Source of the DNA: Bolinopsis microptera
Taxonomy: Eukaryota > Ctenophora > Tentaculata > Lobata > Bolinopsidae
Direction: 5' to 3'
NCBI RefSeq assembly: GCF_026151205.1
Contig: NC_087077.1
Coordinates: forward strand, 9,415,983-9,479,982
Length of the DNA stretch: 64,000 nt
Both the position numbers and the translations under genes were made by a program. Below the pieces are notes generated by a model. That model made no database searches, was not told the origin of the DNA, and saw only the letters and a program-made list of their open reading frames with translations. This document shows, piece by piece, positions 32,272 through 64,000 of the stretch. Numbering within the stretch: the stretch's first letter is position 1; every line of letters begins with the position of its first letter.

Positions 32272-35200
32272 TTAGCAGCCTATGGGGGACTTGGCAAGGT
32301 AGCCGTTAGCATCCAGTCCCATTCTTCCTACAGCAAGGACAGCCTCGTCTACTTTGGTGATTTCGCTGTCGCCCATCTCGTCGAGTAGGATTTTTATCTT
32401 CTGGTGACTCTCTGCACACCAAGCGTTTGCTAGCACAATCTCACCGGTATCTCCCTGGAATGTAACAGTTTGTGGTGACATTGTTTTAGCATATATGGTA
32501 AATTACCATGTATGTTAAGAACTATTACCAGTGGTAATAGTCCTGAATTCCGTCTCGACAATTCATCACATTATAACATTCATTATATCGATGTTTGATA
32601 AACAGTTTCCAAACATACTTTATTGTAAAAATTGAAAAGAATTTCACATGTAGTCACCAGTAACACAGCCTGACAATTAATTTAAACTATCTAAACTATT
32701 AATAACTGGTTGCTAAATTAATTACCTTTTCAGCCATGTTGTTAGACCGACTAATAACAGAGGCCATGCTCTGGAGCAGAATGGCCACGTCAGCGACCCT
32801 GTTTAGAAGAACTTGTTGCGAGATTATATTCTTCTTGTGTTTTATCACCTGTTCGCTGACTGACACGCTGAACTTTGATATGTCTCCTCTCAGCTGAGAA
32901 GGGGGTGGTCAGGTCATGGGTTGTGAAAGTATTGTTTAAACAGAAGGTTTGTTACATTTAAAGAAATTATCAATTGTATTTGAAGGATGTTAACCAAGGG
33001 AAAAAGGAAATCGCGATTATTTAGGCCAAAAATCGCGGCACCGCGACATGCCAAACTAGGCGAAATCGCCAGACCTCGCCAGAACGGAACTCGATGTTCC
33101 ACTTCTAAAAATGATCTTTTGTGGGGACCGAGGGCTCATCGTCCGAGTTTAAAGCAGACACACCTGAGTATGTTCGTAGAAATATTTCCTTTACCCTCGG
33201 CCTCATGAGATGTTGTCCGTATTGAGTTCGCTAACGTTTGTTATAAAGTTATAATATAGATTGACTAGTATAATAATAACCCGTGCCTTCGGCCGAGACC
33301 ACACAGACATTCTGGGATTATTAGTATAGATAGTTTTAACAATCGAGCATGATTCAATGCCACTTTACATACTATAAACTAACCTTATGCCTAACACATT
33401 ACATATTTTATTTCCTCATCTTTGCCCTTGCTCAATGCTTGTGAAAGTGGATTCCTGGAAATCAATTGTTTTCCACAGTTTATGCTACCATGATCATTAT
33501 GAGCCTAACACATTTTATTCGGTTTAATTTACTGAAGTCCGTACCTATTAGTAGTACCTACCTCTCGAAATAATTGTTTACTGGCAATCATTTGTTAACT
33601 GATCAATTAGTTTAAATTTAATAAGCTAATCCTCACCATATCTACTGAGGGTGCTAGATCTGAGTGCACGTTGCACTTCAGCGGGGCAGCTGGTAAGAAC
33701 TTGTTCTTCATTAACCCCATCATAGCACCCATTGTACCTGGAATTATAAACATGCTTGTAAATTAGATAACAGTTGTGACCAGGATGACGTGAGGAGGGG
33801 ATGGATACAATAACATAGCTAGTGTTGCAATTTTTACATACTTAATTGAGTCAAACTTGTAAGCTCAAAGAAAATGTGTACTACTAAAATTCATTATGTC
33901 TAAAATTCATTACCTGCACTTTTCAATTTCTTGCCAATATCTTGTACGCCATTAAGTGCAACGAAAAGTTTCAGAATATCATTGGTTCCCTCAAATATTC
34001 TGAAAATTCTGAGATCCCTCATCCACCTCTCAATCCCAACGTCTTTCATGAAACCAGCTCCTCCTAAGATCTGAATAGTTTCATCGCACACGTCCCATGC
34101 TGCTTGACTTGCAAATATCTTACTGGAATGTAGAGTGGTATTAGAAGGCGTTATTATTGGGAAAAGCACGAATATTTTGCGAATTAAATTCTGACATTGG
34201 ACTGCCAGAGACAAAGCTGAAGGCTGATTTTAATGCAGCAATTGTTAATTTTCTTTTCATATCTATTCCCTTTCAAAGCGTGCCTTTCTTCTCGTATTAG
34301 CGTGTTTTGTCTGCATATTAATCAAATTAAATAGTTCATACAGTGTCACTTATATTGTCCTATGATTTGGCTCCTCGATTTTCAACATTAATACTGTCGT
34401 CTTGGTCATATTAAACGTTTCTCACAATAAGTATTACCTGATGGCTGCTTCCAGTTGATACTCGGGAGCTCCCCTGTCCATGTTTCCACACAGCATGTAC
34501 GCCATCGACTGAAAACATACTGTTGTTAATTTAAAGTATAACAAATGATTCCTAATTTTGTCCGATAACAAGCGGGAAATTTCAGTGCAGTTTACATAAT
34601 GTTAAGAGACTCAATACACTTGTTACGTACACTTTAAGGTGAAAACAGACCAGTTAACGTAAAGATGTAATGCGGTAAAAGAAATCACATGGAATATTTA
34701 GTTGAAGAATATCTTAATTGATGGTTAACAAATTTTTAGGTTTCCAATTTTCCAATTTTTATGGCGGTTTCGTAAGTATGTTTTTATTTTTTCTGCTCAC
34801 TGCTTTATTATTTACTTTAGTCTTGAGCAGGCACCAGACATGCGAACGATGCTCTGAAAATATTGTATGATTCTGTTGTCTCATTCTAATGGACAACTAA
34901 TGTGTCAACAAAAGATTAATTAAACTCAGACCCCTCTTAAATTAGAGTTGAAGGACATATCACTATATCGACAAAGCTCTTAATAAACAAATTCCTTCCG
35001 ATTTTAGATCACAGTTGCTATTCTTCTTACTGCAAGAATGTTCATAGTTTAACTATCAGCTTTTGACTAAGCCATTTAATGGTATTTCGACTTGCGAGGG
35101 AGGTTATGTGCGGCGGTTATTTGGGTTAATCCTGATTTAACTTAAGACATATTCTCATATTACATGTCAGGATTCATCAGAAGTTCAGAAGCCTAGCAAT

Positions 35201-38200
35201 TATAAAATTCAGATAACATTACCGATTACTCTTTTATACCGTGTCCAGTATTTTCAAATAAATTAGTAGGACACAGTTTGCCGGTTGTAGTCCAAATTTA
35301 CATTACCTCATTGCTAGAATTTATTCCTTAAAACAAATTTTCCAAAAATTGTTCCAGATTCTCCCTCCAGAAATTAAGATAATATTACTGATTACTCTTT
35401 TATGCCGTGGGAGTAAATTAGCAGGACACAGTTTGCCCCTTGTAGTCCAAATTTACATTACCTCATTGCTAGAATTCATTCCTTAAAACAAATTTCCAAA
35501 AATTGTTCCAGATTCTCCCTCCTTGCATGTTCCACCCTCTTTGAGAGTGAGACCTATTACTGTAGGCATATTTTTCAAAATTTGCAGAACTTTTCCTTTG
35601 ACCCTTAAATTGGCACAACAAAATCTTTCTGGATTTATCATTTCACATTGCTTCATTTCAATTCTGGAAGCAAATTTCCTGAAATATTTTTCGAGCTCAT
35701 CAGTTTGTTGGGCAAGTATTAGTGCATTTATTAGTGATTAGTAAGATATAATATTTGCTCTTGTTGTTCAAACAAGTTCCCCTTGACGTGATGTGTCTCT
35801 TAAATCTTGATTCATTGTAGTTAAATGTTGTAGCAATGTTAAACGTTTAATATCGCCAAAGTTTTCACAGACTAATATTAGATACTACAAATTCCATCAA
35901 CACAATATCCGGAGATGTACTTCTGTCTTACTTGCTGTAAAGAAAAACAAATGAAGATACATTTGATATTAACATGATATTGTATTAGCAGTTAGCACTG
36001 ACGTATTTGCTTCCGTTGTAATTAAATAGAATTATTTTAATCAGTTTTTGCTTATCCAACTTGTTTTGGTTGAGTTGATATCTGTTAAACTTTATCGCCA
36101 ACAATTTGCCCAGATCTTATGGGGGTTTGTTGCCACTTTAAACATCACCGTGGGAACCCGAATCTCAGAGGGCCTTATGGTTGGCCACCGAAATATCTAA
36201 ACCCGATTACCTACTCCCCACTGATCTATAAGCCTTCGTCAAAATGGTTGCGAAGAAAATTAAGCCCGAAAATTATTCTAGAAAGAAGGTGAAGAAAGAG
36301 CTAGAGATGACATTTGCTGCTGGGACTACTCGACCCCACTCATTTCCTACAACGATGACTGGCGGAATTGTCAGAAATTCGCTGATGCCATCGATGACAG
36401 ACGCAAAAGAGGAAAGTTGGTCGATGTCTTTTATGACAGACGGAATAAATGGGCACTGGATGATGACAACTCCAAACTGGTATGAACAGGAGATGGAGTT
36501 TAAAAAGCAAAATGAAGCGTCAATATCCTTGGCAATTACTTCTCTTCTCATTGGTAAGATTTAGCGAATTGAATGTTTCTAATTTAAAGGCATTTTCTAC
36601 TAAGTACTGCGTAAATACTAAATTCAATATAAAATCCAAAAAGAGTTATATGTCCTAGAACTCTTAACTGATATCATTTATAGCACCATTATACATTTCT
36701 ATATAACACATTAATTCGCCCAATGTAGGACTATTTGGTCTGCCTGCAAACATTCAGATCCTAGCCTACTACTGGAGTAAGAGAGGTAACTTGGTTCCCT
36801 CCCTCTATCTGGCCCTCTCTTTCACAGATTTTATTGTGTGCCTGACAGCAATACTCCATTTCGTCGCCATGTTACTCGTAATAGCAGGTATTTTCTTAAA
36901 CAAGTTGCGAAAGTAAGGTTTGTGAAAATTATTCACCGAATAAGATTTTATATATTTGTGGATTGATGAACTGATTTTCAGATGACTTTTGCTTTACAGA
37001 CATCAATCTTAAATCCTGATTTCTCCTAGATGTTTACGACGAGTCACCAGTGCTGACCCCCTATCTCGGTGTTGTGTTCTCCTTGACGACACTAATCTTG
37101 CGAGTTTCTGTCTTTGTCAACGTGGTGCTGATTGTAGTCCGAACCATCAATATAACCCGACCTTTCTACCAAGTGAACATTAAAAAAATGTGGATAGCAA
37201 TCTTCATCTGCCCTATAGTCCTGCTGCCTATTATAATCTATGATGCTGTTCAAATAGGAGAATTAGAAACATCATTTGGGAGTAAGATCCGATACGTCTT
37301 TCTCCCATTCGTTGGAGACTTCTGTATCAAGGACATAGTGGTCTCAGTGGCAAACATTCAAGCCAAGAAGGGTAGTAAGAAATCAATACAAATTCCACAG
37401 GGAGTAACCTTTGCTACATCTTGCGCTCCCTTCATCTTAGCGGTTATAATTTCACTGGCATGTTTAGCAATCAACTGGAGGAAGCTTTCCACTAGCCAGA
37501 AAAAGATGTCCGCCAGCAAGAGTGGCGAAAGTAGCAATACAGAACGGGAAGTAACGATCACAATCGGAATGCTGACCACAGTCTTCTCGTTATGTAACAC
37601 CGTGTACGCAGCATTCCTGACTCTGTGCTGGATTCTTAACCTAGACTACTGGAGTGATCAACGTGTCTTGCAGCTGTGCTACTTGACAAGCACGGTATTC
37701 CCTTTTTTAAGCTCGGCGCTCAATCCGGTTATCTTGATATGGAGGAGCAAAAAGTTGATGGAGTCACTGAAGAATAGGCTGCTCTGCAGAAATCCTAAGA
37801 AGATCGAAAATGCAACCTGTAGTAGTACGGCCGCAACGATCTTTACGAGGAAGCTATGAAGCTATTGATGAATTATATGCAAACAAATATAACTTACTAT
37901 GTCTTCAGTTTCCTTAATTAAAAGAGATTATCTATAATCCAAAACCATGGCCACAGGGCATAAAAAAGTTTTCTTTGTGTTAAATTTCTTACCTCATTTG
38001 CATAGCACAATAGATTCATCCTTGCGATCTTCTGCTGTATTCCCTGGTATTCTCTGAGGTTACTAACGAACTGTTTTCTGGTATTTGCGTGATCCGTGGA
38101 TTTGGCAATCAACATTTTCATTGTGCCAGTTAGACACGCCCCCATACCAAATCTGCCGTTGTTCAGGATGTTCATGGCAACCTGGGTTTTTCGATGTTTT

Positions 38201-41200
38201 AAAGTTTGATTGTATAAAGATATGGGATTTATTTTGGATTTTCGAATTTCATGGAATTACTTTTCTTGCCATAGTCCGGCTTTTTATCTAAGAAATGGTA
38301 TTCAGTTGAGTCTGAAGGTTAAGATTAAAACAGAATGAAGAACGAAAGTAAGATGAGCCACTAATTCACTTTCTTACCAATAAGATAATACGGAAAAGTA
38401 AAATTAATATAGTTACCTTGAAACCACCTCCCTCTTCACCAAGAACATTTTCCACGGGAATTTCACAGTTCTCGAAGTATACTTCAGCAGTATTGGAACA
38501 TTTAATTCCCATTTTCTTCTCTGGTGGGCCACTGAAATTATACACGTCAGATAAAATCAAGGTTATCTTCTAACATAATTGTGAAACCTCGAAAATGTGA
38601 CGCATGTGCTGGAGAGTTTAAGAAGTAGAAGTTCCACTGCCGTGAATCTACGAAAAAAACTGCGCGCAGTATAATATTAAAGCGCGCACAGATTTCTGAA
38701 CATATTTTGCGTCTCGCACTCTGCAAATATGCAACTGCGTTCAGCCGTTTTGGTAACATGGACGAGTCTTATCTAATTGTGACGTCACAATATATACATT
38801 TTGAGATCACGTGATTGTACTAAAGCTAATTATACAACATATACAAGCACACAGGTGAATTCACAGTAGCAAAACAGTTAACAAAATTAATTTACTACGT
38901 GTAACATTGGAACACACCCAGCGAAGATGCCAATTTGTAAGAATATTGAATTATAAGCAATTAATTTAAGCAGCGAAATGCATTTATGTTATGACTCATT
39001 TTGTGCGAAATTGATACGAGCCACGAGGCCTACCAAATCAGTATTTGCCACAATGCAGAACAAAAACTGAAGAGTAATAACTTACTGGCTGACACCCCCG
39101 AAGGCTCGCTCCACAATAAATGCGGTTATTTTGTCTTTAGGTTCGCCAGTCTTTTTGTCTATTCCAGGCGTTTTAGCGAAAACTGTGAAGATCTGAAAAA
39201 CAGAAATTCGTCAATATCATGATTAGTTATTAGATTAACGTGGTTCATTGGTCCTACTGCCGCAGAAAGAATAAAACGATACAATTATTTATTATATATT
39301 TATTTATAAGTTATTTATTATCTATTTATTTATAAATTATTTATTATCTATTTTAACATCCACCAGTGCTACATGATTTCACTTACCTCTGCAATTCCAC
39401 CGTTACTGATCCATATTTTAGCACCGTTCATAACGTAGTGTGTACCAGCCTCATTCAGCACTGCCCTCGTTTTGATGGACTGTAATATAAACAATACTTA
39501 GTATTCCATAAAGCTATTAATTAATAAATTATCTTAGCTCAAGGTATTTTTTATGAGAACATCCTGCTGCAAAAATCATAACAATGTTTGAGGGTAAAAT
39601 ATTGCGAATCTGTCTGTAATGAAAACACAGTACGTGTCTCAATTTGGCAACACGATTAGAATGGGAGATTGAGTTAATGGAAGGGCTGAATCTCCCAAAA
39701 GTAGATTAAAGGAGCCACCTGTGTACTGCGTACTGCGTAGCATGTGTAATTTTAACTGATCACACTAATTCAGGAAGAAAAACTTAGAGGTACAACTCAT
39801 CGAAAAGAAATTGAATCTATTGCAGTCTTGATAACTGATATAACAATACTTATTTACCAATCAATATGTACTTGTAGGACAAGTACACAGTTTTCAATAG
39901 TAGGGCTATTTATCACAGGGCGATCCGTTTCATTTTAGAGAAATTCAAAATCAATTTAGGTAACACCAGCTGTAGTAAGATGATAAGAGCTCCTTGCAAA
40001 AGTGGACTTTGAATCTCTCGACTATATAAAACACAGAATATAAAACGTACGCTAGCATCAGATCCGCTGCTAGGCTCAGTAAGACAGAAACAAGCGAACA
40101 CATCTCCTGACGCCAGGGAAGGGAGGTACTTCTCCTTCTGCTCCTCGTTACCGTACAGGAGTATTCCTTTGTAGCCAATACTTTGATGTGCTCCAGTGTG
40201 TATACCTGCATAAATAACGTCCAGGTAATGTATATAATAACATCTATAAACGAAAGAGTACATAAAGAGGCTCAGCCTATTTACGCTTTCTAAGACTCCT
40301 CCGTTTAATATGTCTTATAAAAATACATCAAAGTAATTCAATATTAAACGATTCTCTGTGGAAACTGGAATGGACTCATAACCAGTAACCACCATATCCG
40401 TAAAAAGATTTAATTAAGCTGTATATGCAGTCTTATCAAGTCTGGAATAGAAAGTACCAGTTCGTTATAATAAGACCCGGAAAGAAACCTGATCCCATAA
40501 TATTGGTTACAGTTCACATTTTTTAAATATCACGCGATAAAGAATACATATATTACAAGGCGCAGGTATTTGAACAACTTGGAAAATAAAGGTCAGTTTT
40601 CACACGTCATGTTAAAACTTTTTACCAAAAGTTTTCCAAGCAATGTACAGAGTTGAATAGATATTCAATAATTATAATAAAATGGAGATTGTAAAAATAT
40701 GCCCTTTTCCGTATGTGCCAGCTCAGTAAATAATACTCAGTAAAGTTGTTGTTAAAAGTATGGGCAGGTGCATGCAGATAAACAAACATACAAACCGTCA
40801 GTACACTTTCAAAACATACGTATTGCAATCTATCAGTACATACCAAGACCAAGATCGTATTCGCCGGTGAGTTCTCCAAATTTAGCGTACATCGTGTTAG
40901 TGAGAGCAACACCTCCATACTCTTCTGGTACCTAAGTTAGTGTGTTAGTGAGAGCAACACCTCCATACTCTTCTGGTACCTAAGTTAGTGTGTTAGTGAG
41001 AGCAACACCTCCATACTCTTCTGGTACCTAAGTTAGTGTGTTAGTGAGAGCAACACCTCCATACTCTTCTGGTACCTAAGTTAGTGTGTTAGTGAGAGCA
41101 ACACCTCCATACTCTTCTGGTACCTAAGTTAGTGTGTTAGTGAGAGCAACACCTCCATACTCTTCTGGTACCTAAGTTAGTGTGTTAGTGAGAGCAACAC

Positions 41201-43994
41201 CTCCATACTCTTCTGGTACCTAAGTTAGTGTGTTAGTGAGAGCAACACCTCCATACTCTTCTGGTACCTAAGTTAGTGTGTTAGTGAGAGCAACACCTCC
41301 ATACTCTTCTGGTACCTAAGTTAGTGTGTTAGTGAGAGCAACACCTCCATACTCTTCTGGTACCTAAGTTAGTGTGTTAGTGAGAGCAACACCTCCATAC
41401 TCTTCTGGTACCTAAGTTAGTGTGTTAGTGAGAGCAACACCTCCATACTCTTCTGGTACCTAAGTTAGTGTGTTAGTGAGAGCAACACCTCCATACTCTT
41501 CTGGTACCTAAGTTAGTGTGTTAGTGAGAGCAACACCTCCATACTCTTCTGGTACCTAAGTTAGTGTGTTAGTGAGAGCAACACCTCCATACTCTTCTGG
41601 TACCTAAGTTAGTGTGTTAGTGAGAGCAACACCTCCATACTCTTCTGGTACCTAAGTTAGTGTGTTAGTGAGAGCAACACCTCCATACTCTTCTGGTACC
41701 TAAGTTAGTGTGTTAGTGAGAGCAACACCTCCATACTCTTCTGGTACCTAAGTTAGTGTGTTAGTGAGAGCAACACCTCCATACTCTTCTGGTACCTAAG
41801 TTAGTGTGTTAGTGAGAGCAACACCTCCATACTCTTCTGGTACCTAAGTTAGTGTGTTAGTGAGAGCAACACCTCCATACTCTTCTGGTACCTAAGTTAG
41901 TGTGTTAGTGAGAGCAACACCTCCATACTCTTCTGGTACCTAAGTTAGTGTGTTAGTGAGAGCAACACCTCCATACTCTTCTGGTACCTAAGTTAGTGTG
42001 TTAGTGAGAGCAACACCTCCATACTCTTCTGGTACCTAAGTTAGTGTGTTAGTGAGAGCAACACCTCCATACTCTTCTGGTACATAAGTTAGTGTGTTAG
42101 TGAGAGCAACACCTCCATACTCTTTTGGTACCTAAGTTTTAAAACTCGGTATAATCACAATACTCTAGAGAGATATTAGATATAAATATGTACTCTAGAG
42201 TACTGATATCTGGATAATATCCGGTTGGAAGGGACAAGTCCTTGTCTCTTCCAACCGGATATTATCCAGATATCAGTATTTCAATCACGAGATTAATAAA
42301 CAGCGAACTACTCCGTTATTTGGTACTCTAGAGTGTTCAACTTATTAGAGAATATTATAATCCTTCTATGTTGGGCTAACTGGTGTATCAAAATTCAGAG
42401 TAAAGATTAAGAAGACCGTACAGGAATTACTGTGGTCAATAGAAAATCCTTATAATATTTGTTCAGTGCAGCTGTTCTAAAGAACATTTTGCTGCGATTG
42501 CAACATTTCATATTTATCATCTCTAGATGAGTTATACTTTTGTTCACTTTTACACATTTGCTCACATCACTCACAGTCAGCCGCTCTGACATGGTTAACC
42601 ACCTTCCTTGTGTTGTTGGTTAATCATATGAGCGGGATATAAATACCTCATTTTATTTTATTTCATTTCATAACTTAATCGCGTGATAAACCTAGATTTT
42701 TCACACGTTCAGGATAAAAACGTTCGTTTTAACTTGTTTATTTTTCCAGCAGCCTACTAAGCCTACAATAAATCACACATAATTACTCTGTGTTTAACAC
42801 AAAGTACGTACCATGAGGCCGTACATGCCCAGAGCTCTCATCTGATCAAGTTGTTCTTCTGGGATCTTCTCGTTGGAATCGTTCCCAGCTGCATCGTTTG
42901 TTTCCTGTACAAGGTAGAGATAGAACTTACTGCTTACTAGTAAAATAGATATCTAGCAAAGTAAACTAGCATCTCATATTTCGGCATACAATGGTCTCAT
43001 CTGCCAGCTTTATTACAGTTCCAGTAGTTAACGGCTTTTAACAATAGTTTTTTTTGAGATGATTTAGTTGTTTAGTTGTTTGTTGCTGACTATGTTTACC
43101 TCACCATTTAGAACCACTCTCACATGGTTTTCCCTGCCACTTGTGTCAGTTGCTATCCATTATATGGGCGGTATACACTATACAACTTACACGCATGTTC
43201 TTTCATTTCATTTCAAGTTATTCCAGCGTTATGTACTATTTTAACATTTGGCGACAAGCATTAACCGATGTCCGAATAAATTTTATTGTAAATTCGAGAT
43301 AAACTTGATGAGAAATAATCATAACAAGTTGTATACAATCACAAAGCTATGCATAACAAAAATTTAATGCAAAACAAGGAGCACACAGAACTTGTCTATT
43401 TATTATAAACCCTACCACTATACCTGGAAGAAAGAGTGTCCTGCCTCCATCATCATGGAGATGGTTTCCTTTTGTTCGGCTGACAGTACATCAGGGTAAG
43501 GGAACAGCTCCTCCTCGCGCAGTTCTCCCAGAAATATACCACGTGCAAATGACGTGTTTGCTGTTTCGCCAAGATATCGCTTACATGTCACCGCTACGGG
43601 CTGATATGCTCTGGGGAAAGTATTGGGTTATTATTACGCACGTAATTATGTTCTGAAGATACAAGTCACGCTGGTCAACAAGTATTTAGGATATTTCCAT
43701 TCAAGATATTTTCAAACTGAGGATAAACTCAGATGATAATTTTTAGCATTGAACGAAGGCGATTACAGGAGCTTTTTCATGATCATCAGCTGGCCCACAA
43801 GGTCTGTTGAAAACTGCACGTGTTTCTAAATGATTTGTTGGTAAAAATGATCTGCCAGCTCTAGGAGACTAAAATAGTTCAAAATCCATCTGGCAGAGAA
43901 TCCTAACGATCTAACTTGTCATTAAACAGTAATGAGATTCTTACCTGAGAGCTTTAGCGGAGTTGTAGAGAAGTGATGCACTTCTTAGTGACAT
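32272..43994 (-). CDS. ACADVL: Very-long-chain acyl-CoA dehydrogenase, mitochondrial (14 exons, complete)
   Basis: Exons on the minus strand are 43945-43994, 43424-43610, 42812-42904, 40844-40931, 40051-40205, 39387-39479, 39086-39192, 38417-38531, 37993-38181, 34438-34508, 33914-34122, 33637-33737, 32726-32893 and 32272-32454. All have AG/GT borders and phases agree, giving 602 aa. The N-terminus [17 protein letters not shown] is a mitochondrial presequence. The FAD-dependent dehydrogenase core follows: [80 protein letters not shown] has the catalytic Glu in EGT. A ~180-residue C-terminal extension marks VLCAD (ACADVL/ACAD9 type); FEGTNDIL and FVAL favour ACADVL. It catalyses the first step of mitochondrial long-chain beta-oxidation at the inner membrane. 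Oddities are the 26-fold repeated acceptor of exon 4 and a GPCR gene in intron 9. Confidence 0.93.
36244..37859 (+). CDS. Class A GPCR, three exons, nested in ACADVL intron 9
   Basis: Exons are 36244-36553, 36729-36887 and 37030-37859, with ATTG|GTAAG, TAG|GACT, GCAG|GTATTT and CCTAG|ATGT borders. All junctions are phase 1, giving 432 aa. Residues 1-90 are a hydrophilic N-terminus; a later ATG is possible. TM1 ([22 protein letters not shown]) crosses the first junction. TM2 has LALSFTD with the conserved Asp. TM3 ends [20 protein letters not shown], with Arg-Thr-Ile in place of DRY. TM7 has [12 protein letters not shown], an NPxxY variant. The tail is short and basic. The receptor should be in the plasma membrane; the ligand is unknown. 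It lies on the strand opposite its host gene. Confidence 0.85.
40893..42136. repeat. 48-bp minisatellite carrying the exon-4 splice acceptor (about 26 units)
   Basis: The unit CTCTTCTGGTACCTAAGTTA (plus 28 bp) recurs every 48 bp from 40921 to 42121 with almost no variation; I see one GGTACATAAG and one TTTTGG at the distal end. On the minus strand each unit holds CTAAC, ACTTAG| and the first 39 nt of exon 4 (GTACCAGAAGAGTATGG...). Only the exon-proximal unit continues into the exon body. The distal end shows the original intron context (TTTTAAAACTTAG). Units are 16 codons long and carry an in-frame TAG. Confidence 0.95.
42137..42811. other. ACADVL intron 3 segment with a near-perfect hairpin
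   Basis: Arms of about 37 bp at 42202-42238 and 42241-42277 (ACTGATATCTGGATAATATC / complement) leave almost no loop. TACTCTAGAG lies on the left (about 42191) and again at about 42324. It is a small MITE or structured intronic RNA. The rest is plain intron. Confidence 0.75.
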
Positions 43995-45637
43995 GATTAA
44001 TCTGAACGGTCATTGTTCATCATTAAATTATGATAAGTAATATGAACCAAAAAATTGGCCAGAAAGTGATTATGTAATAATGCTTGAACGACCCTTAAAA
44101 ATAAGCGAATTAATACTGTGAGTACTTCTCGAGAAGCGAAAGCATAGAAGTTAGCATAGCAATTTGATTCTGAGGAAATCAGCATTTCTATATTTAACAA
44201 ATTATCATATCATATAAGCTGCTGTGAGCTTTGTGTTCCATCCCATTAATAGCACAGCTATAGGAAATAGAATACAGGCGAGATCAACTCACCAGATCTC
44301 AGGCCCTTGTCTTCAAAAACTTTCTAAATTTGAATTTTATTGACTTACTTTTAACTTAGTACAAAGATTCCAATTTTGTCATCTAATGAAGCTGTTTAAC
44401 TTTGTGAGTTTGGATACCATAGCGTATTTGTGTACTTTTAAATTTGATTAAGCCAGGGATGGACTAAGTAATAATTTGATAGGCAAACTACACCTGGAAG
44501 ATATTATAATTCTTAGGGACGACTTAAATTATATGATAATAAACATTAATATATATTAAAGTTTCCGTAAAGGAGACATTACGCAGGACCACCTGCATTT
44601 AATTACTATTTTACCTGCGTATTTCAAACGTTTCAGTAAGCCGTTTATTTAAATAGAACTATGATTTTAGCTTTTCACAAGCACCTGCTCAAACCGCCTT
44701 CAATATTTCCCCCTAACAGCAAATTGTATTAGTCAAATATATTTAATTTTGTTGCCATCGCAAATCCATATATTGCGTGTCCTGAAATCTCGCTCAATTT
44801 AAGATAACAAATCATTTCCAGCTGATAAAACTGAGACACACCTGGTTCAGAGACCTTCAAACTTGTCAGCTCTAATCGCTTCTTACTCAAAAACCCTCTT
44901 TTTAAATCGAAGATTGCTGACATTTCGTTGCACTTCAATGCTATCTCGTTTGATCATCCACTTTGCTCAATTAGGAAGTGAACTAGTTTAACATTACTTC
45001 TATAACCAAGAGACTTCTCACTTCCATAGTAATTTTTCTACACCTGGCTGACTAAAATTAGATTTGAGTCTAATACTTTTCTTTTAAAACTGACTGCAAC
45101 CGACAGTATTTACTTTTATCAAGAAGCACCTGTTTTCAGTCTTGTAGCACTTGTTTGACAATAAAAAGCGTGTGCACAGTCAAAAGCCAGTTTCAGTTCA
45201 ATTCAAAATTTATTCGATTAATCTTTGATTCCTTAAGTTTTAGAGCATCCTAACTTTAACAAAAATGTCATTTTGCACAAAAAACTTGTTTTTTTATCCA
45301 AATACTTAAAGCCTTGGAAGTTTGTTGACACCATTATCAACAAATGACTGAAGCCATGTTTCCAGCGGTTACAGGGTTATAGTTTCATCTGATCATGACT
45401 TAATCCCACTGTTTCCAGACTGTTTACAGGACAGTTCTATAGCACAACTGCCATGATGGCAATGCCATCTTTAATTTCTTCCACCAAATCGCATTTGGTT
45501 GTTATTCACCACTCATCACTAAATCCCCCTTTTTATACTTTTAGAATCTAATTTCAATAAAGATTTTAAAACCCATAAAATAATGAATTATCTAATAATA
45601 ATAAAAATAATAAAATACTTCTAGGTTGAAGATCATC
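43995..45637. other. Intergenic interval between ACADVL and a GPCR gene
   Basis: It must hold the ACADVL promoter and the 5' region of the GPCR gene. No frame or RNA gene is recognised. A TACTTCTAG|GTTG acceptor at 45624 suggests a 5' UTR intron for the GPCR. Confidence 0.5.
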
Positions 45638-46705
45638 ATGGCAAATCTGACTGTGCCCTTGAGAAACATGTCTGTACTCCAGCTATACAAAGCTAAATAT
45701 GAACCTTGGACAGACTACATAAACATTGAAGCTGAAAGATATGCAGCTATCACATATTATTGCTTAGCCCTTCTCCTTGCCTTAGTGGGTAACACCATCA
45801 TCTTAGTTGCTACAATTAAGTACAAGGCAGTGAAACTTGACAAGGTAACCAACACCCTGATTCAACATTTAGCTTTCTCTGACATTGGTAATGCAACCTT
45901 TGGAATCATTCCTTCTCTGGTTACCTTGATTGCTGATAGATGGACCTTTGGGCCCCTGCTTTGTGATGTTATTACCTACATCAGGATGGGTTTCTATTAT
46001 TCAAGTGTCTTTCTGGTGTGTGCTCTGAACACCTGCAAGCTGTGTCTGCTTTTGTTTCCCATCCAAGCAAGGCACTGGTCCAAGAGAAGTGGTCATCTTG
46101 TAGCAGCAGTTGCTTGGTCCATCTACATTCTGTTTCAAAGTGTTGCCCTGATATGTGGAAAATTCTCGCCTATATTCTTTGAGTATAGAATCATGTCGTG
46201 TTGGTATGTGCCAGCAGACCTTGGAATAGGCTTAGGATTTTCAGTGCTGATTTTCATGGGTCTGCTAGGGTATGCACCAATATTGATTGTTCTTGGCACC
46301 ACCATTGGGCTACTTTGTGTTGCATTTAAAATTGCAAAGCGAGGAAGAGATTCAGTTCAATGGCAAGGAGTGGTCACTGTTCTTTCAATTGCAGGAATCT
46401 ACTGTCTGACATACCTACCATTCATCATTTATCACACTATTTACAACAACCTCTATCTTCACCCTGACCTATCAGGGATGTCACTTAACACAAAAGCTAT
46501 ATTCTACCTTCAGCTTTTTACCATCACAAACGCCATTGCATATCTCAATAATTTTGCAAATATATTCATCTACTACATTTCCATGGCAAGCTTCAAGAGA
46601 TTCATTCATGCCAAACTTCCTCGTGTATTTCAGCCTCAACAGGAGAGAAATATCTCAAACGCTTTTCCGAGTGGAACTGGAAGCACCCAGCAGTCAACTC
46701 TATGA
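45638..46705 (+). CDS. Class A GPCR, single coding exon
   Basis: The ATG at 45638 (ATCATGG) gives 355 aa. Asn residues in NLT, RNMS suit glycosylation of a short N-terminus. TM1 40-62 has GN (Asn52), and TM2 has LAFSD (Asp82). Cys109 at the top of TM3 and Cys188 in loop 2 can form the usual disulphide. TM3 ends ALNTCKLCLLLFP, so the DRY motif is replaced. TM6 has CLTYLPF (CWxP variant) and TM7 NNFANIFIYY (NPxxY variant). The tail is short and Ser/Thr-rich. The loss of DRY with retained Asn1.50/Asp2.50 is common in invertebrate orphan receptors. The ligand is unknown. Confidence 0.88.
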   Translation: MANLTVPLRNMSVLQLYKAKYEPWTDYINIEAERYAAITYYCLALLLALVGNTIILVATIKYKAVKLDKVTNTLIQHLAFSDIGNATFGIIPSLVTLIADRWTFGPLLCDVITYIRMGFYYSSVFLVCALNTCKLCLLLFPIQARHWSKRSGHLVAAVAWSIYILFQSVALICGKFSPIFFEYRIMSCWYVPADLGIGLGFSVLIFMGLLGYAPILIVLGTTIGLLCVAFKIAKRGRDSVQWQGVVTVLSIAGIYCLTYLPFIIYHTIYNNLYLHPDLSGMSLNTKAIFYLQLFTITNAIAYLNNFANIFIYYISMASFKRFIHAKLPRVFQPQQERNISNAFPSGTGSTQQSTL

Positions 46706-47708: not shown

Positions 47709-50242
47709 ATGGACACGTTCATTTGAGTTTGAGGATATTGGTAAATATAAGTGACCCTATTAAAAGGCACAGTGTAGTTGACTATGTCACACTATGAAAT
47801 TACACAAATCCTTGATGGTTAGGATAATCGTCTCATCCTCTAGGCTAACTTTGTCACATAACGATATCTTAATCAGGTGATAAGATATCGCTTAAATACG
47901 GCCGGCACGCAAATGGTTACATTGTCACACTATAAACATGTGACAGAGTAAATATGGACCCCTTGCTGCCGTTTTTGACCAAAATTTTGAGTGTCCAGTT
48001 GATTGGATGGGTACATATGACCATTACCTACATATTTGAAGACTTTTTTCGTTAGATGGTGCACTCAGGTTTACTCTGTCACACATTTAAGAAAATATAT
48101 GAACAATGTTTAGGGAACCCTGATAAGCAATGCTGAGTAGTGTAGGTTTAGTTAATGGCCTGGAAGTGCTAGGAATTGTTATTATATCATATAGTCGCAA
48201 GGAATTAAAACACAGAAGGCACAGACAAGTTTACTTTGTCACATAATCTTGATGATATCTGAACATGTGTGAAATTGAACAAATAATGATATACCAGCTT
48301 AAACCCTTTGTATTACGTACTATGGATCAAACAACACTGCTAGTACCATGCACCAGTCACATAAATCATTATCAGGTGGTAATATGTTAACAGTGTCACA
48401 TTTAAACTACCGCAACATGGTCAAAAATAGGGTAATTTTGTCACAAAAAAATTATTATAACTCTGTCAGCTCCTTGCTGGCAAAATAACTAGTTTATCGA
48501 AATTTTTTTGATGATAAAATTACATAGTATTCTAATAGAGGTATAGTTCTTCAAAATAGGGGCAAGACATGTTTACTTTGTCACATCAGTTATTATAAGA
48601 GTTACGTAATCGTCGTCAGATTAACTGATCTTTTTCGTAGTATGGATCGATTAATATAGGCAATAAAGCATCCTAATTCCTATGCCAATTTTAACACACT
48701 ATCTTGATATTGTTGGGGCAGGAAAAGTTAATTTTGTCACATTTTTAGTGACTTTGACAAATTTAACCTGAAATTGTTAAACTTGAGCTCTGATGTTCTG
48801 GACAATATTCTACCAATCGTTTCTGAAAGAATGTTGAATTCTTATACAGTTATAGATCTTCAAAATAGGGACAAGACATGTTTACTTTGTCACATCAGTT
48901 ATTATTAGAGTTAGGTAATCGTCATCAGATTAACCGATCTTTTTCGTAGTATGGATCGATTAATATAGGCAATAAAACATCCTAATTTTAACACACTATC
49001 TTGATATTGTTGGGGCAGGAAAAGTTAATTTTGTCACATTTTTAGTGACTTTGACAAATTTAACCTAAAATTGCTAAACTTGAGCTCTGATGTTCTGGAC
49101 AATATTCTACCAATCGTTTCTGAAAGAGTATTGAATTCTAATAGAGTTATAGATCTTCAAAATAGGGACAAGACATGTTTACTTTGTCACATCAGTTATT
49201 ATTACAGTTAGGTAATCGTCATCACATTTACATATATTTTTTTGTAGTTTGGATTGATTTATTTAGGTACTAAAGCAGCCTATGCTAATTTTTACACACT
49301 ATCTTGAAATTGTTGGGGCAGGAAAAGTTAATTTTGTCACATTTTTAGTGACTTTGACAAATTTAACCTAAAATTACTAAACTTGAGCTCTGATGTTCTG
49401 GACAATATTCTACCAATCGTTTCTGAAAGAGTATTGAATTCTAATAGAGTTATAGATCTTCAAAATAGGGGCACGACATGTTTACTTTGTCACATCAGTT
49501 ATTATAAGAGTTATTATAAGAGTTATTATAAGAGACTATTTCATTATATAATCATTGTTTTTAACCTATTTACGATTTCGTATAATTTTTTGTGACAATG
49601 TAAACATCAACTGATCTTAACTTGCATCAACTACATTGTCATCATGTAAAGTTTTTCCGCCTTTCAAACCAAAATCAGATATAAATAATTCGCCCAAAAT
49701 TTTAAATTCCATATATTGTGACAGAATTAACCTCATTTCCCAATAACCAAGTGCCTGTAATAGCTAACTATTCAAAGCAACATATTTTAGGGCTATGATT
49801 GGTACTCCGTACTAAGTAGATCAACCATCAAATAATGAGTAAAAAGGGTTTTGAGGACACCTCACAGTAGAATAGAGGTATGGTATTCTGAGTGTGACAA
49901 AGTTACCTAAATATTGCCTTGTAACCGTTCGATCCGTGCCCTTTAACCAATGTTGTATCATAATTGTTAGATTGACCTAATCTACTATGTTTCAGACCAA
50001 GGAATGATAATTAGACAACTGCAGTTAATTAAGTCACAAAAATGTGACATTTGAAACATTATAGTGCCTAACAACAATAGATTTTCTTTCTGAGCAGTGC
50101 ATATAGGAGTATGGGTTACGTGGCTAATGTTCAGAACTTCTGAACGTGCTAGGTTAATAGATGTCAAAATTAAGCCACTATCGTCAAAAACGCTATTATT
50201 TTTGTTTACCAATATCCTCAAACTCAAATGAACGTGTCCATA
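47709..50242. mobile_element. GTCACA element 3 (diverged)
   Basis: TGGACACGTTCATTTGAGTT and its complement CAAATGAACGTGTCCA form the ends, with TA on both sides. The motif here is GTTTACTTTGTCACA alternating with GTTAATTTTGTCACA at 48571, 48727, 48880, 49025, 49177, 49327 and 49480 (145-156 bp apart). Reversed motifs lie near 49600-50050. The overall sequence is clearly diverged from elements 1 and 2, yet GTCACA is kept. Confidence 0.82.
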
Positions 50243-50585: not shown

Positions 50586-51191
50586 TAAATATGCAAATAT
50601 TTGTCAATTGTTAATGGACTAATCCGATTCGGCGTGCGCTATTTTGTAGCACTCCTGGCTTGCTCTATCCAGAGCCCTTGCGCTTGCAGTAGCGCGCGCC
50701 CGCCTCACGGCGGTTTTCTTGACTTGTGAAACAAGCGCGCCCGAAGTGGCGCGAAAGCACATGGTTAGGTGAACGCAAACCTCACCACTTACTGTGTACT
50801 GACCGGGCGTGTTATTAAAGCATAAAGGTGATTTTGTATCACGTCGTGACCCCCATTGTCATTTCACTAAGTATCGTTTCACTGCACTAGTATCGTGGCC
50901 ACGATCGCGATTCAGCCGCGCAATTGTAAGTTTATAACCAACCAGGACGCGCGCCGAGTTGGACTCGTCGAAACAAATATTTTACGAGTATCACCCTTTA
51001 ACCGCACAATTGTGCGCGGCAGGTCTAAAACGTATGATAAAGTTCATTCACGATGTCAATCCTTCGCAGCTCGTTGAGGCCCAGTGCTGGTGCATATTGC
51101 CGATCTACCGAAGTGGTAGTGGACGGCTATACAGCAACGTGATTAGTGGCCCGCCTGCACTGCAGCGGAGGGGACGGAACGGTTAACAGGT
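50586..51191. other. GC-rich repeat patchwork upstream of the LINE
   Basis: It includes a GC-rich unit (50605-50770, related to 59500-59620), an inverted partial hAT MITE (50834-50895), a solo TIR (50925-51002) and a SINE-like copy (51047-51175) ending a few bases before the LINE start codon. Part may be the LINE 5' UTR. Confidence 0.6.
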
Positions 51192-54100
51192 ATGGTTAAT
51201 CGTGTTCAAAAGGAAATTTGTAGTCACTGTCTGAAGAATATTGGATTAGGGCTTCCCCACTTTGAATGTTTTAACTGCAATAGTATTCTCCATGCCAAAT
51301 GTTTTAATCCTTCCAAAGCGCAAGTTATCAATGGCAACTTTTACTGCAACGAGTGTAAACATTCCATATCTAAAAAATATAATCCTTTTAAAGTAATGAC
51401 CGATCCTGAAGTTAATGACTGTGACCCATGTATCCAAAAGATGTCCGATGCTTTGGAAAACTGTAGATCCTATACAATTAAGGACTTTAACACACATATC
51501 AAACCGTGTTTTGCAAGCAACTGCTCCACGATTTTCCAGAACATAGATGGTAATAAAACAAATTTTGATGCCTTTAGCATGGAACTAAACCGATTAGCCG
51601 AAAAATTTAAAATTATTGGACTTGCTGAAACCAATATTGGAATAGAGGAAAGCACTGTTTACCATCTAGAGGGGTACAATTATTTCTATCAGGACAAACA
51701 TATCAATAAAGCAAAGGGAAGTGGAGTAGCATTGTACTTAAAGGACGAACTTAACGGAGTTGTAAACGAAGAATTATCATGGGTTACCAAAAATCTTGAA
51801 ACCCTATTTATTACTATTCAACATGATGAACCTGTACATGTAGGAGTACTGTACCGTCCTCCTAGTGGGGACTCCTCAGAGGCACTAAATGAACTTAGAA
51901 AAATTATTGAATCATGCCCAAAAAAGAACGTTTACATACTAGGTGACTTTAACATTAATCTCCATGATGAAAACAGTAAACTTGTTCAAGACTTTGAAAA
52001 CCTTATTCTAGGTCTAGGTTTATCACCACTTATTTCTACTTCCACGCATCATAAACCAGGATGTAACGAATCATGCATTGACAACATACTCACCAACAAC
52101 ATAGAGAACTCTATCTGCTCTGGAACAATTAGTACCTGCATCAGTCACCACCATGCTGTATTTAACATATTCAACTCACCCCTAGTCAGTACTGAGGTTC
52201 ATGAACAAAACTATTTCCAGTACTATGACTACTGTGCAAAAAATGTGGACAAATTTGTGGAAGTACTAGACAATGAATTAACTAGTGATCCACCAGAAGA
52301 CTTCAGTAATTTTTTCACTGTATTTAATCATCAACTAGACAGTGCATGTAAACTAAACCAGCCTAAGTGTTCTAAACGTACTGCTAAGAATAATCCATGG
52401 ATTACATCAGGCCTGATTGCCTCTATAAATAGAAAACATGAGCTTTATGACCTGTGGAAAAAGGCAGTAAAGAAGAAATGCCTCAACGCCTCTTCAACCA
52501 ACCATGCAGACTGTCTTACCCTTTGTTTTAATTGTACAAATAAGGTAACACGTCATGAAGAATTTAAGGCACACCGGAAGTTATTAAACCACCTTATTAA
52601 TTCTGCAAAACGTAAGTATCATGGTGTTAAGATTACAGAATGCGCTGGAGATAGTAAGAAAACTTGGCAGATAATTAATGAACTACGTGGTAAGAAAAGA
52701 CGTGAGATTAAACCTAACTTTGTGATAAATAATGAGCGTGTGATTAATCGTCGTGTAATTGCAAATGAGTTCAATAAATACTTTGCCTCTATTGCAGCTA
52801 ACTTGAACGAAGCATACTCTGGTGACTTCTTAAGAATAAATTCCCTGCCGTCATTTACTGATTACCTGCCCACATCAGTTACGTCCAGTATTTTTCTTTG
52901 TGATTGTGACTGTATTGAGATTAAAGAGATCATAAACGAACTAAAAAACGGGAAATCTAGTGACATACCTATTCATGTGATCAAGAAGTCGTGTCAAATT
53001 ACTGCACCGTACTTAGCTAGATACTTTAATAAATGCATGCAAGAAGGCCACTTTCCCGATGAATTAAAAACTGGGAGAATCAGCCCCATTTACAAAAAAG
53101 AAGATGAACAGCTTTTAGAAAACTATAGACCAGTATCAACTCTACCTGTATTCGGGAAAATTCTAGAAATGTTAATATATAAGCGGCTCTATAGTTTCCT
53201 TACTTCCAAGGGTATAATACATGAAAACCAGTTCGGCTTTAGAAAAGGACACTCCACCAGCCATGCACTGAACTACTCTGTAGAACATATAGAATCGTTA
53301 ATTAGTAAAAAGCAACATGTCCTAGGGGTCTTTATCGATCTCTCAAAAGCCTTTGACACTCTAGACCACTGTAAACTAACTACAAAATTAAACAACTACG
53401 GCATAAGAGGAAATGCTCTGAATCTTATCTCTAGTTATTTGTCTAATAGGAAACAATTTGTAAACGTTTTGGATACCAAATCTGATGAATTACCAGTCGA
53501 ATTCGGGGTCCCTCAGGGTAGTGTATTAGGACCTCTACTTTTCCTACTGTACATCAATGACATATGCAATATAACTAAAAAGGGTAAATTTGTCTTATTT
53601 GCAGACGATACTAATATATTTGTCGCTGCCGATTCGAGAAATAAAGCATATGAATTAGCTAATGAAGTACTACAGGCCGTAAACAAGTATATGGGAGTTA
53701 ACCTACTGCACATTAATGTAAAGAAGTGTTGTTACATGTATTTTTCTCCCTCTAAACGTAATAATAACGAATTAGATGCCGATATAGATAGCCAAAACTT
53801 GTCCATTAATAACAAAATAATTAAACGTGTAAGTCAGACAAAATTTCTTGGAGTAATCATGGATGATAAATTGAGCTGGAAACCACATATATCATCCCTC
53901 AACAAGAAACTAAGAAGTGCTTGTGGACGTATCTACCGTATTAAGAAATGCTTACCAGAATCACTATATAAGCAAATATATCATTCCCTCTTTGAATCAC
54001 ACCTAGGTTATGCTATCTCTGTCTGGGGAGGTACTCCCAATAATCAGTTAAAACCGCTATTTATTACTCAAAAGAAGTGTATCAGGATTCTATTTGGAGA

Positions 54101-54536
54101 CTATGAAGCTTATGTAGACAAGTTCAAGACATGTGCTAGAGCAAGACCAATTAATTCTCAACGTCTAGGATCTGAATTCTATGTTAAAGAGTCCACTAAG
54201 CCTCTATTCACAAAACATGAATTACTTGTTACAGAGAACCTGTACAGATACCGTTGTTTAATGGAACTTTTTAAGATCATTAAGTCACGAGTACCAATTT
54301 CGTTATACTACTTATTCAACATATCAAATAGGAAAGATAATCTGTTCATTACACCCTCTCCAACTAATCAATTTATTTATAAATCTGCATGGCTGTGGAA
54401 TGAATTCCGTAAAGTTGGCCCGTTAAATTTCACCTCCACATGCAGATCTATCAAGAATTTACTTAAACAGTCACTTCTAAGAGCTCAAAACCGGTATGGA
54501 ACTGAGTGGTGTGACAAAAATTTCACTGAATTCTGA
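51192..54536 (+). CDS. Intact LINE polyprotein: PHD finger, AP endonuclease, reverse transcriptase
   Basis: A single uninterrupted 1,114-aa frame. Residues 10-55 form a C4HC3 PHD-type zinc finger (C10, C13, C26, C29, H34, C37, C52, C55). Residues ~112-325 form an EEP/AP-endonuclease with LAETN (Glu146), LYRPPSG, LGDFNINL (251-258) and a terminal SHHH. Residues ~625-880 are the reverse transcriptase, with VFIDLSKAFDTLDH (Asp716), GVPQGSVLGP (772-781) and the catalytic FADD (803-806). A thumb/C-terminal domain follows. There is no RNase H. This layout matches the CR1/L2 group, with the PHD that usually sits in ORF1 fused to the polymerase. It copies itself by target-primed reverse transcription in the nucleus. 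All catalytic residues are present, so recent activity is likely. The 3' end is not clear. Confidence 0.93.
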   Translation: MVNRVQKEICSHCLKNIGLGLPHFECFNCNSILHAKCFNPSKAQVINGNFYCNECKHSISKKYNPFKVMTDPEVNDCDPCIQKMSDALENCRSYTIKDFNTHIKPCFASNCSTIFQNIDGNKTNFDAFSMELNRLAEKFKIIGLAETNIGIEESTVYHLEGYNYFYQDKHINKAKGSGVALYLKDELNGVVNEELSWVTKNLETLFITIQHDEPVHVGVLYRPPSGDSSEALNELRKIIESCPKKNVYILGDFNINLHDENSKLVQDFENLILGLGLSPLISTSTHHKPGCNESCIDNILTNNIENSICSGTISTCISHHHAVFNIFNSPLVSTEVHEQNYFQYYDYCAKNVDKFVEVLDNELTSDPPEDFSNFFTVFNHQLDSACKLNQPKCSKRTAKNNPWITSGLIASINRKHELYDLWKKAVKKKCLNASSTNHADCLTLCFNCTNKVTRHEEFKAHRKLLNHLINSAKRKYHGVKITECAGDSKKTWQIINELRGKKRREIKPNFVINNERVINRRVIANEFNKYFASIAANLNEAYSGDFLRINSLPSFTDYLPTSVTSSIFLCDCDCIEIKEIINELKNGKSSDIPIHVIKKSCQITAPYLARYFNKCMQEGHFPDELKTGRISPIYKKEDEQLLENYRPVSTLPVFGKILEMLIYKRLYSFLTSKGIIHENQFGFRKGHSTSHALNYSVEHIESLISKKQHVLGVFIDLSKAFDTLDHCKLTTKLNNYGIRGNALNLISSYLSNRKQFVNVLDTKSDELPVEFGVPQGSVLGPLLFLLYINDICNITKKGKFVLFADDTNIFVAADSRNKAYELANEVLQAVNKYMGVNLLHINVKKCCYMYFSPSKRNNNELDADIDSQNLSINNKIIKRVSQTKFLGVIMDDKLSWKPHISSLNKKLRSACGRIYRIKKCLPESLYKQIYHSLFESHLGYAISVWGGTPNNQLKPLFITQKKCIRILFGDYEAYVDKFKTCARARPINSQRLGSEFYVKESTKPLFTKHELLVTENLYRYRCLMELFKIIKSRVPISLYYLFNISNRKDNLFITPSPTNQFIYKSAWLWNEFRKVGPLNFTSTCRSIKNLLKQSLLRAQNRYGTEWCDKNFTEF

Positions 54537-63213: not shown

Positions 63214-63591
63214 TTTGTTACAGTTACAGTTACAGTTACAGTTACAGTTACAGTTACAGTCACAGTTACAGTCACAGTCACAGTCACAGTCACAGTCACA
63301 GTCACAGTCACAGTCACAGTCACAGTCACAGTCACAGTCACAGTTACAGTTACAGTTATAGTGACAGTCACAGTTACAGTTACAGTTACAGTTACAGTTA
63401 CAGTTACAGTTACAGTTACAGTTACAGTTACAGTTACAGTTACAGTCACAATTACAGTCACAGTCACAGTCACAGTCACAGTCACAGTCACAGTCACAGT
63501 TACAGTCACAATTACAGTCACAGTCACAGTTACAGTTACAGTTACAGTTACAGTTACAGTTACAGTTACAGTCACAGTCACAGTCACTGTG
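63214..63591. repeat. (ACAGTT)n/(ACAGTC)n hexanucleotide array 1
   Basis: An interleaved run of ACAGTT and ACAGTC units in the ATF7IP-like intron, immediately upstream of the exon acceptor (minus strand). The long reading frames across it are repeat artefacts. Confidence 0.95.
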
Positions 63592-63640
63592 GGTCTCCCA
63601 CTGAGATCATGGGAGGTGGGATCGGGAAATTAGACCTGAG
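63592..63640 (-). repeat. 49-bp duplicate of the exon start plus splice acceptor
   Basis: GGTCTCCCACTGAGATCATG... is identical to 63165-63213, 427 bp away. It holds 44 bp of the ATF7IP-like exon and its CAG acceptor, without the rest of the exon or a proper donor. A decayed third piece (AATTAGACGTGAGGTTAC) lies at about 63920-63937. Confidence 0.93.
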
Positions 63641-63919
63641 GTTGTTACAGTTACAGTTACAGTTACAGTTACAGTTACAGTCACAGTCACCGTCACAGTT
63701 ACAGTTACAGTTACAGTTACAGTTACAGTTACAGTTACAATTACAGTTACAGTTAAAGTTACAGTCACAGTCACAGTCACAGTCACAGTCACAGTCACAG
63801 TCACAGTAACAGTCACCGCCACAGTTACAGTTACAGTTACAGTTACAGTTACAGTTACAGTTACAGTTACAGTTACAGTTACAGTTACAGTTGCAGTTAC
63901 AGTTACAGTTACAGTTACA
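63641..63919. repeat. (ACAGTT)n/(ACAGTC)n hexanucleotide array 2
   Basis: Same repeat as array 1, beyond the duplicated acceptor. The remaining bases to 64000 hold no feature. Confidence 0.95.
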
Positions 63920-64000
63920 ATTAGACGTGAGGTTACGAAGCTTGGATAATATGAGTTTATATGAACACTAGAATATTTTATTGTTAATCTGTTTGTTGTC

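Follow-up and report, generated by a model that had tools for sequence, protein, structure and literature searches.

The human gene 6-16 (IFI6/G1P3) reportedly contains a minisatellite, the subject of a 1995 paper in Nucleic Acids Research, whose unit supplies multiple splice donor sites, and to our knowledge the competition of identical splice sites has been studied mainly with built constructs that carry two sites. In fission yeast (SPOG_01682 / SOCG_00815) a 24-base-pair (bp) exonic segment containing AGGT is described as multiply duplicated, with introns across four or two of the duplicates, and in the potato RdRp gene an intron/exon structure with branch site, pyrimidine tract and 3' splice site is described as tandemly duplicated (PMC4974935). 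Human segmental-duplication genes are reported to contain internal tandem repeats at exon-intron boundaries, with 27 intron modifications (PMC2812944), and laboratory constructs with tandemly duplicated splice sites go back to Reed and Maniatis in 1986 (as related in PMC9225289 and PMC5389562). Here we analyse a stretch of 64,000 nucleotides (nt), called the window in the following, from Bolinopsis microptera (contig NC_087077.1, positions 9,415,983 to 9,479,982), a member of the ctenophores, a lineage argued to be sister to all other animals (PMC10232365). Within the window a 48-bp minisatellite runs across the 3' splice site of an exon in the gene for VLCAD, so that the acceptor of that exon is repeated in tandem. 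An original prediction, made from the letters alone, had pointed to this array, and we compared it with the other junctions of the gene and with arrays in further genes of the same genome.

The repeated acceptor of the VLCAD gene

The gene as modelled lies on the reverse (-) strand of the window (32273..43560), as do all its parts given below, and comprises 13 exon pieces with an open frame of 568 amino acids (aa) and an incomplete 5' end; the exon boundaries were read by eye, and the exon numbers 3 to 5 are labels, given the incomplete 5' end. The frame matches human VLCAD with E=3.7e-183 and ACAD9 with E=5.6e-150, and it aligns without a gap at the exon 3/4 junction. The better match along the protein supports the identification as VLCAD (ACADVL) that had been proposed. 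When exon 5 was used to look for a second close copy in the genome, the next four matches were 39-49% identical, and therefore no such copy was found. Exon 3 (42812..42904) ends at the donor ATG/GTACGT at 42811 (the slash marks the cut), the functional exon 4 (40844..40931) has 88 nt (29 aa + 1 nt) and the donor TTG/GTATGT at 40843, and exon 5 (40051..40205) has its acceptor at 40205. Both introns that flank exon 4 are long: the upstream one measures 680 nt to the first of the repeated acceptors and 1880 nt to the last, and the downstream one 638 nt.

The array lies at 40894..42138. Tandem Repeats Finder gave it a period of 48, 25.9 copies, a match of 99% and a score of 2476, which is far beyond chance, and these head-to-tail copies of a unit of between 10 and 100 bp make it a minisatellite; the predicted repetition of a splice site at this exon is thus real. 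The array consists of 25 complete units (42131-40932), a partial unit of 38 nt (40931-40894) that continues straight into exon 4 and forms its first 38 nt, and 7 nt that match the intron upstream (42138-42132), the reason why the program counts 25.9 copies. Units 2-25 (40932..42083) are 24 identical copies of GTACCAGAAGAGTATGGAGGTGTTGCTCTCACTAACAC followed by ACTAACTTAG, i.e. 38 nt of coding sequence and then 10 nt that end in a 3' splice site. The exon-derived part had been put at 39 nt, which is one too many, as nt 39 is A in the array and G in the exon. Unit 1 (42084..42131) differs from the others at two bases, so the units are near-identical as had been seen, and its acceptor end has changed from TTAG to TTAT and is dead (0.21 bits in the model described below). 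A further acceptor, TTTTAAAACTTAG (42132..42144; 4.93 bits), stands outside the repeated unit, before unit 1, and is probably the acceptor that the exon had before the array arose. Together with the 24 at the unit ends it brings the number of live acceptors at an exon 4 start to 25, next to one dead boundary (TAT); about 26 had been predicted. In a DNA search of the genome (264.65 Mb in 232 contigs) the VLCAD array was found at no second place. Its copy number and the perfect identity of its units are those of one assembly.

Site strength was judged with a position weight model derived from sites of the same genome, 27 donors and 27 acceptors (11 of each from VLCAD and 16 of each from myosin genes), which left out the array junction and the exon 3 donor. 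The 16 myosin introns are what remained of 24 script-called ones after filtering and de-duplication, seven exon pairs without an acceptable intron having been dropped, and the scores lean to canonical sites because the myosin calls used a generic consensus. The 24 unit-end acceptors score 6.76 bits each, and 13 of the 27 real acceptors score lower (leave-one-out): the array acceptors are on a par with the genome's ordinary acceptors, in keeping with the suggestion that the locus is a natural test of acceptor choice. They read TAG, like 2 of the 27 real acceptors, the other 25 being CAG, and the exon 3 donor reaches 7.73 bits. All 24 are identical over 48 nt upstream and 38 nt downstream, so that local sequence is unable to separate them. 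The predicted branch-like CTAAC is present, but twice before each array acceptor; by a count made by eye, the branch A lies at -6 in one motif and at -14 in the other. Only the latter motif (ACTAAC), which the exon-derived stretch of the unit supplies, approaches a plausible distance. For 8 of the 11 VLCAD introns a branch-like motif could be placed by eye, its A at about -15 to -26.

A single AG of the same intron outscores the array acceptors (9.42 bits, next base 42209), and it lies inside the stem of a foldback element (42201..42325; arms 42201-42238 and 42241-42278, 38 nt each) about 70 bp from the array. The hairpin just upstream of the array (z -9.28) was considered as a structure specific to the VLCAD gene and rejected, since it is this dispersed foldback element, whose family gave 547 first-look candidates, 40 of them scored, and 102 matches. 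RNA structure that hides the upstream acceptors was likewise rejected: the array folds no more stably than shuffled sequences. The window had no Rfam matches at gathering thresholds.

The outcome in the reading frame was followed for the first, third-last, penultimate and last acceptors, and the remaining ones share the identical units 2-25. The last acceptor leads to the intact 568-aa frame and is the sole one of the four to do so, and it would thus be, as predicted, the one that yields functional VLCAD. From the penultimate and third-last acceptors the protein ends in TLT after one unit, at the in-frame TAG that each extra unit had been said to bring, and from the first the frame stays open through unit 1 and meets its stop where unit 2 ends. 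Skipping of the 88-nt exon 4 shifts the frame.

Splice-site-spanning arrays in other genes

The title of the original prediction implied that the VLCAD array was singular. This was wrong, as five further tandem arrays span splice sites in a small sample of other genes: two multiply acceptors (three and two copies) and three multiply donors (four, twelve and four). The genes were sampled from three families (myosin, dynein and acyl-CoA dehydrogenase) and not at random, and the exons at the five arrays were assigned by Pfam profile matches of neighbouring exons, by PDB matches or by conserved sequence read by eye.

In a myosin-like gene on contig C11 (L042/L072) a 72-bp unit, present three times, holds TTTTAACCACTGCTTCTTTCAG up to the cut and then 33 nt from the start of the next exon; with its upstream acceptors the frame stays open and gains 24 aa for every unit. 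The paralog has a single copy, and just upstream the two genes align over 2434 columns with 97% identity; both ends of the duplicated segment share the 10-nt direct repeat CAACTATTTC (by eye). The two genes form an inverted pair (L042 2836-3058 and L073; G000:C11 ~11.964 and ~12.113 Mb) whose three copies versus one look like the states after and before a duplication of the splice site. The second acceptor array belongs to an ACAD8-like gene on contig C12 (L070; best PDB match ACAD8, 4e-07), in which a 53-bp unit occurs twice with 100% identity; the last acceptor leads to AAQQCLEDVLHYTNDRKAFNQPL and the first runs into a stop.

The three donor arrays are found in a myosin and two dynein genes. 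On contig C13 (L051) a 31-bp unit extends four times across a myosin donor, of which the first alone leads to THNKREMRGEVFLSPLNEDQ, and the other three end in RGK and a stop. A dynein heavy chain gene on contig C2 (L099 2466-3233, reverse strand; G000:C2 ~21.036 Mb) has 12 donors at a spacing of 62-65 nt after LFRPVAMTLPDFGLIIE; every copy also bears the last coding stretch LFRPVAMTLPDFGLIIE or something close to it, and the later donors lead to LDLLR and a stop. In another dynein gene, on contig C1 (L096 2312-2394; G000:C1 ~13.0766 Mb), four AG/GT sites in decayed units of 17-18 bp follow FLDKILQ and score 6.73, 8.02, 9.53 and 4.45 bits in order, the later ones leading to ILQV and a stop. In all six arrays, VLCAD included, the conserved protein requires the copy that is nearest across the exon. 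The other copies bring a stop in five of the six, and in the C11 gene they add 24 aa.

Short arrays with acceptor-like sites were also seen by myosin exons at L057 2782-2908 and L045 1033-1130 and may be further cases. Repeats with splice-like sites in each unit that could be tied to no coding exon edge were not counted, namely those of L001, L011, L015, L028, L045, L052/L060, L057, L062, L066 and L098, the other strand of L070, a 22-bp pair in L072/L073 and the repeats of the window.

With VLCAD excluded, two crossed junctions in 30 myosin loci and two in 12 dynein loci amount to 4 of about 158 junctions (2.5%; 0.7-6.4%), and this becomes 5 of about 168 (3%; 1-6.8%) once the ACAD8-like case is included, for which the 10 added ACAD junctions are a guess. 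The denominator is a rough one, i.e. twice the number of exons inside the loci that were matched by a hidden Markov model (HMM; 55 of 73 in myosin, 24 of 67 in dynein), and the crossed exon of L042 itself is without an HMM match. No array crosses a junction of the 24 script-called myosin introns or any of the other 23 VLCAD junctions. Arrays with a period of at least 20 make up 2.8% of the sequence in 23 myosin loci (seven of the 30 overlap and were left out) and 9.6% of the window, and in the ctenophore Hormiphora 13% of the genome was called as tandem repeats (PMC8527503). The crossing rate is about that of a random placement of abundant tandem repeats and close to the array coverage, so that there is no enrichment of arrays at junctions, yet no sign of strong removal either. 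Tandem duplications that straddle splice junctions are a recurrent feature of this repeat-rich ctenophore genome. The glutamate-receptor genes support a ctenophore: of 32 matches in the genome 18 short stretches were taken, and four of these were compared with PDB. Two had the Mnemiopsis receptor ML032222a as their sole hit at E<=1e-25 and a third at E<=1e-30, and the fourth (L074) matched GluD1-type receptors best. The closest stretch agrees with ML032222a in 90 of 111 aligned columns, which speaks against M. leidyi itself unless the two are paralogs. COX1, used as a taxon marker, gave no match.

The window contains other repeats and several reading frames besides the VLCAD gene. Three arrays with units of about 300 bp (10923-12127, 20581-21299 and 48529-49513) have consensus starts that look alike and are perhaps one dispersed repeat family, and two hexamer arrays were found, CCCTGT with 218.7 copies (1026-2337) and GTTACA with 117.7 copies (63217-63923). 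On the forward strand there are a rhodopsin-like receptor reading frame (45614-46699), a long frame with endonuclease and reverse transcriptase domains that resembles a LINE element (51147-54530), and a weak rhodopsin-like receptor frame, below the Pfam cut-off, that lies within a VLCAD intron on the opposite strand (37020-37853); nested genes have been reported for Hormiphora, in line with the last of these (PMC8527503).

Choice among the copies and persistence of the arrays

We think it rather probable that these arrays are minisatellites that have come to straddle splice junctions and are tolerated since splicing takes the site nearest across the exon. The VLCAD array would have been born by duplication of AACTTAG (7 nt of intron) together with 38 nt of the exon, i.e. 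45 nt, to which a further 3 nt were added at the joint, and usual minisatellite expansion would have brought it to about 25 units while the unit at the 5' edge decayed. The duplication on C11 may have made use of the 10-nt direct repeat and that in the ACAD8-like gene perhaps of 2 nt. The arrays would persist because one junction copy, the last of the acceptors or the first of the donors, adjoins the intact exon and would stay functional and be chosen mainly by cross-exon pairing; where other copies are occasionally used, the resulting messages with a stop or an insertion would be lost or remain minor. With the same local sequence at up to 25 acceptors or 12 donors, position must decide, and cross-exon pairing appears to be the simplest rule that keeps all six proteins. 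The duplication origin, the acceptor that is used and the manner of its choice are what we infer from these data. Work on human splicing offers support for such a rule: where the flanking introns are long, the choice is reported to move towards the sites nearest across the exon, and when exon-defined minigenes offered two identical donors, splicing reportedly went exclusively to the one nearer across the exon (PMC9225289), and in a beta-globin substrate with duplicated 3' sites only the distal one was spliced (PMC5389562). The prediction that most message must be lost unless some 25 sites are skipped finds no support, as the human data are mixed and re-splicing through AG/GT would be another way out.

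Several points weigh against choice of the nearest copy across the exon. Use of the last VLCAD acceptor is deduced from the conserved frame. Human 3' sites are reported to prefer the upstream site overall; long flanking introns are said to reduce this preference but, in the account given, are not stated to reverse it. According to the same paper, the competition between 3' sites that Reed and Maniatis observed went in favour of the upstream one (PMC9225289). The substrate with duplicated sites was spliced very inefficiently, and concurrent occupancy of two 3' sites is described as inhibiting splicing (PMC5389562). In a first-come model with 25 equal sites and assumed rates the last site receives less than 3% of the products. 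The ACAD8-like intron is short (121 or 174 nt, by eye), and there the upstream acceptor should win, and in the C1 dynein gene the true first donor is weaker (6.73 bits) than the second and third (8.02 and 9.53). Finally, the survey is small, its denominator is rough and the crossing rate is no higher than random placement of repeats would give. A wider claim can be made only tentatively, as we doubt it more than we believe it: that such arrays form a genome-wide class in ctenophores, on the order of a few % of junctions, in which the spliceosome chooses by cross-exon pairing almost regardless of the number of intronic competitors, and of which the VLCAD array is an extreme case that may be cleared by stepwise re-splicing.

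Such re-splicing is also the main rival explanation for VLCAD, one that we consider unlikely. Use of an upstream acceptor would recreate a donor that is spliced again until the last acceptor remains, as in recursive or dual-specific splicing. Because exon 3 ends in ATG and exon 4 starts with GTAC, as at the true donor ATG/GTACGT, splicing to any upstream acceptor recreates an ATG/GTAC donor. Nearly every unit boundary reads TTAG/GTACCA, so that each unit is a GT...AG segment, and there are 25 AG/GT sites in all (the upstream one and 24 unit ends). The unit donor TAG/GTACCA scores 5.22 bits and the recreated ATG/GTACCA 3.65 bits, with 3 and 2 of the 27 real donors scoring lower, respectively (leave-one-out); one of the donors called in the myosin genes reads GAG/GTACCG (the script's best fit), AG/GT is present too at the ACAD8-like acceptors and in both dynein donor arrays, and human UBC is reported to be processed via tandem AGGT dual-specific sites (PMC10809524). 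The recreated donor is nevertheless weak in VLCAD (the 3.65 bits above) and has almost no strength in the ACAD8-like gene (0.25 bits), and a residual single unit would be an intron of 48 nt, when the shortest of the 24 called introns has 124 nt and none is as short as 48. Moreover, AG/GT is common anyway (7 of the 27 acceptors are followed by GT and 17 of the 27 donors preceded by AG), and the acceptor array on C11 reads CAG/ACG, without a GT, so that stepwise re-splicing cannot be the general reason why such arrays are tolerated.

It is more doubtful still that the upstream acceptors take a real share, that the TAG-bearing messages decay and that the length of the array thereby sets the output of VLCAD. 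The acceptors are indeed of equal strength, and each upstream choice that was tested stops before the intact exon copy; the proposal that copy number tunes beta-oxidation is nonetheless unsupported, as neither regulation nor selection nor a polymorphism of length is in evidence here. Myosin and dynein genes, which are unrelated, have arrays of a comparable kind, and this points instead to a by-product of tandem duplication; UBC is described as being without tissue-specific or feedback regulation (PMC10809524).

To a like degree we find it improbable that the array is an artefact of assembly, with a true copy number that is much smaller or a perfect identity that stems from polishing. Assembly with wtdbg followed by short-read polishing could get the number of copies wrong and smooth away differences between repeat units. 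The published B. microptera assembly was built in this way (PMC10232365), but the array of 1.2 kb is within long-read range, and the variants of unit 1 survive in it. The donor units of the C2 dynein gene vary as well (spacings of 62, 63 and 65, and base changes), and the three copies versus one on C11 stand in distinct paralogs. That the array is a reserve of acceptors for spliced-leader trans-splicing, which would allow an N-terminally shortened product from exon 4, can hardly be credited. Trans-splicing of this kind is common in ctenophore messages, and trans-spliced leaders are widespread in Hormiphora (PMC8527503), but the array lies inside the gene, downstream of a good donor (7.73 bits), a product that starts at exon 4 would miss the conserved N-terminal part, and the donor arrays of the other genes would be left unexplained.

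Comparison with described systems

A search of the literature for splice-site minisatellites, with subscription papers outside its coverage, showed no acceptor array among the entries listed. Arrays such as those described here supply, in nature, up to 25 acceptors or 12 donors of the same local sequence and are ready-made tests of site choice. They indicate that repeat expansion can walk across a splice junction with the gene unbroken, and they probably represent a stage on the way from tandem duplication to intron change.

Among the described systems the minisatellite of 6-16 shares with ours that the repeat unit gives identical splice sites at an exon edge, which here are the acceptors of VLCAD and the donors of the C13 myosin (L051) and C2 dynein (L099) genes; these two donor arrays come closest to it. 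In VLCAD, by contrast, acceptors are repeated and not donors, the 48-bp unit straddles coding sequence, and the phylum is another one.

UBC likewise has tandem units with AG/GT boundaries at which a donor or an acceptor is possible, and the unit lengths of 228 nt (UBC) and 48 nt (VLCAD) are both multiples of three (PMC10809524); in VLCAD, AG/GTACC is found before unit 1 and at 24 of the 25 unit ends. The units of UBC are described as whole functional protein modules of which any number can be kept (PMC10809524), whereas those of VLCAD lie at the 3' end of an intron and hold an in-frame stop, so that retention of extra units is not harmless and only their complete removal would be productive.

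The fission yeast genes have in common with VLCAD that AGGT-bearing tandem units are removed by splicing over several copies, but there a new intron arose within a duplicated exonic segment (PMC4974935), and in VLCAD an existing intron was lengthened and its acceptor multiplied. As modelled, intron 3/4 would have grown from 680 to 1880 nt, and no new intron was created as in the Rogers model, in which introns are gained by tandem duplication of an AGGT segment. The duplicated segment of the potato RdRp gene straddles a 3' splice site, as does the unit of VLCAD; there, however, a single duplication produced an additional intron and exon, and no array (PMC4974935). In the human segmental-duplication genes, too, minisatellite expansion over an exon boundary alters gene structure; those repeats have about 4 copies on average (up to 39 of one type in the morpheus exon) and belong to young paralogs (PMC2812944), whereas VLCAD is a conserved enzyme for whose gene no close second copy was found, and 25 live acceptors precede one of its exons.

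The annotation of B. microptera made use of Iso-Seq and RNA-seq (PMC10232365), and which copy is used might be readable from these existing data. The constructs of Reed and Maniatis raise the same competition between repeated sites as the VLCAD array does, with the difference that in theirs the upstream 3' site was reported to be chosen, while the VLCAD array is natural, has 25 copies and belongs to a ctenophore (PMC9225289, PMC5389562).

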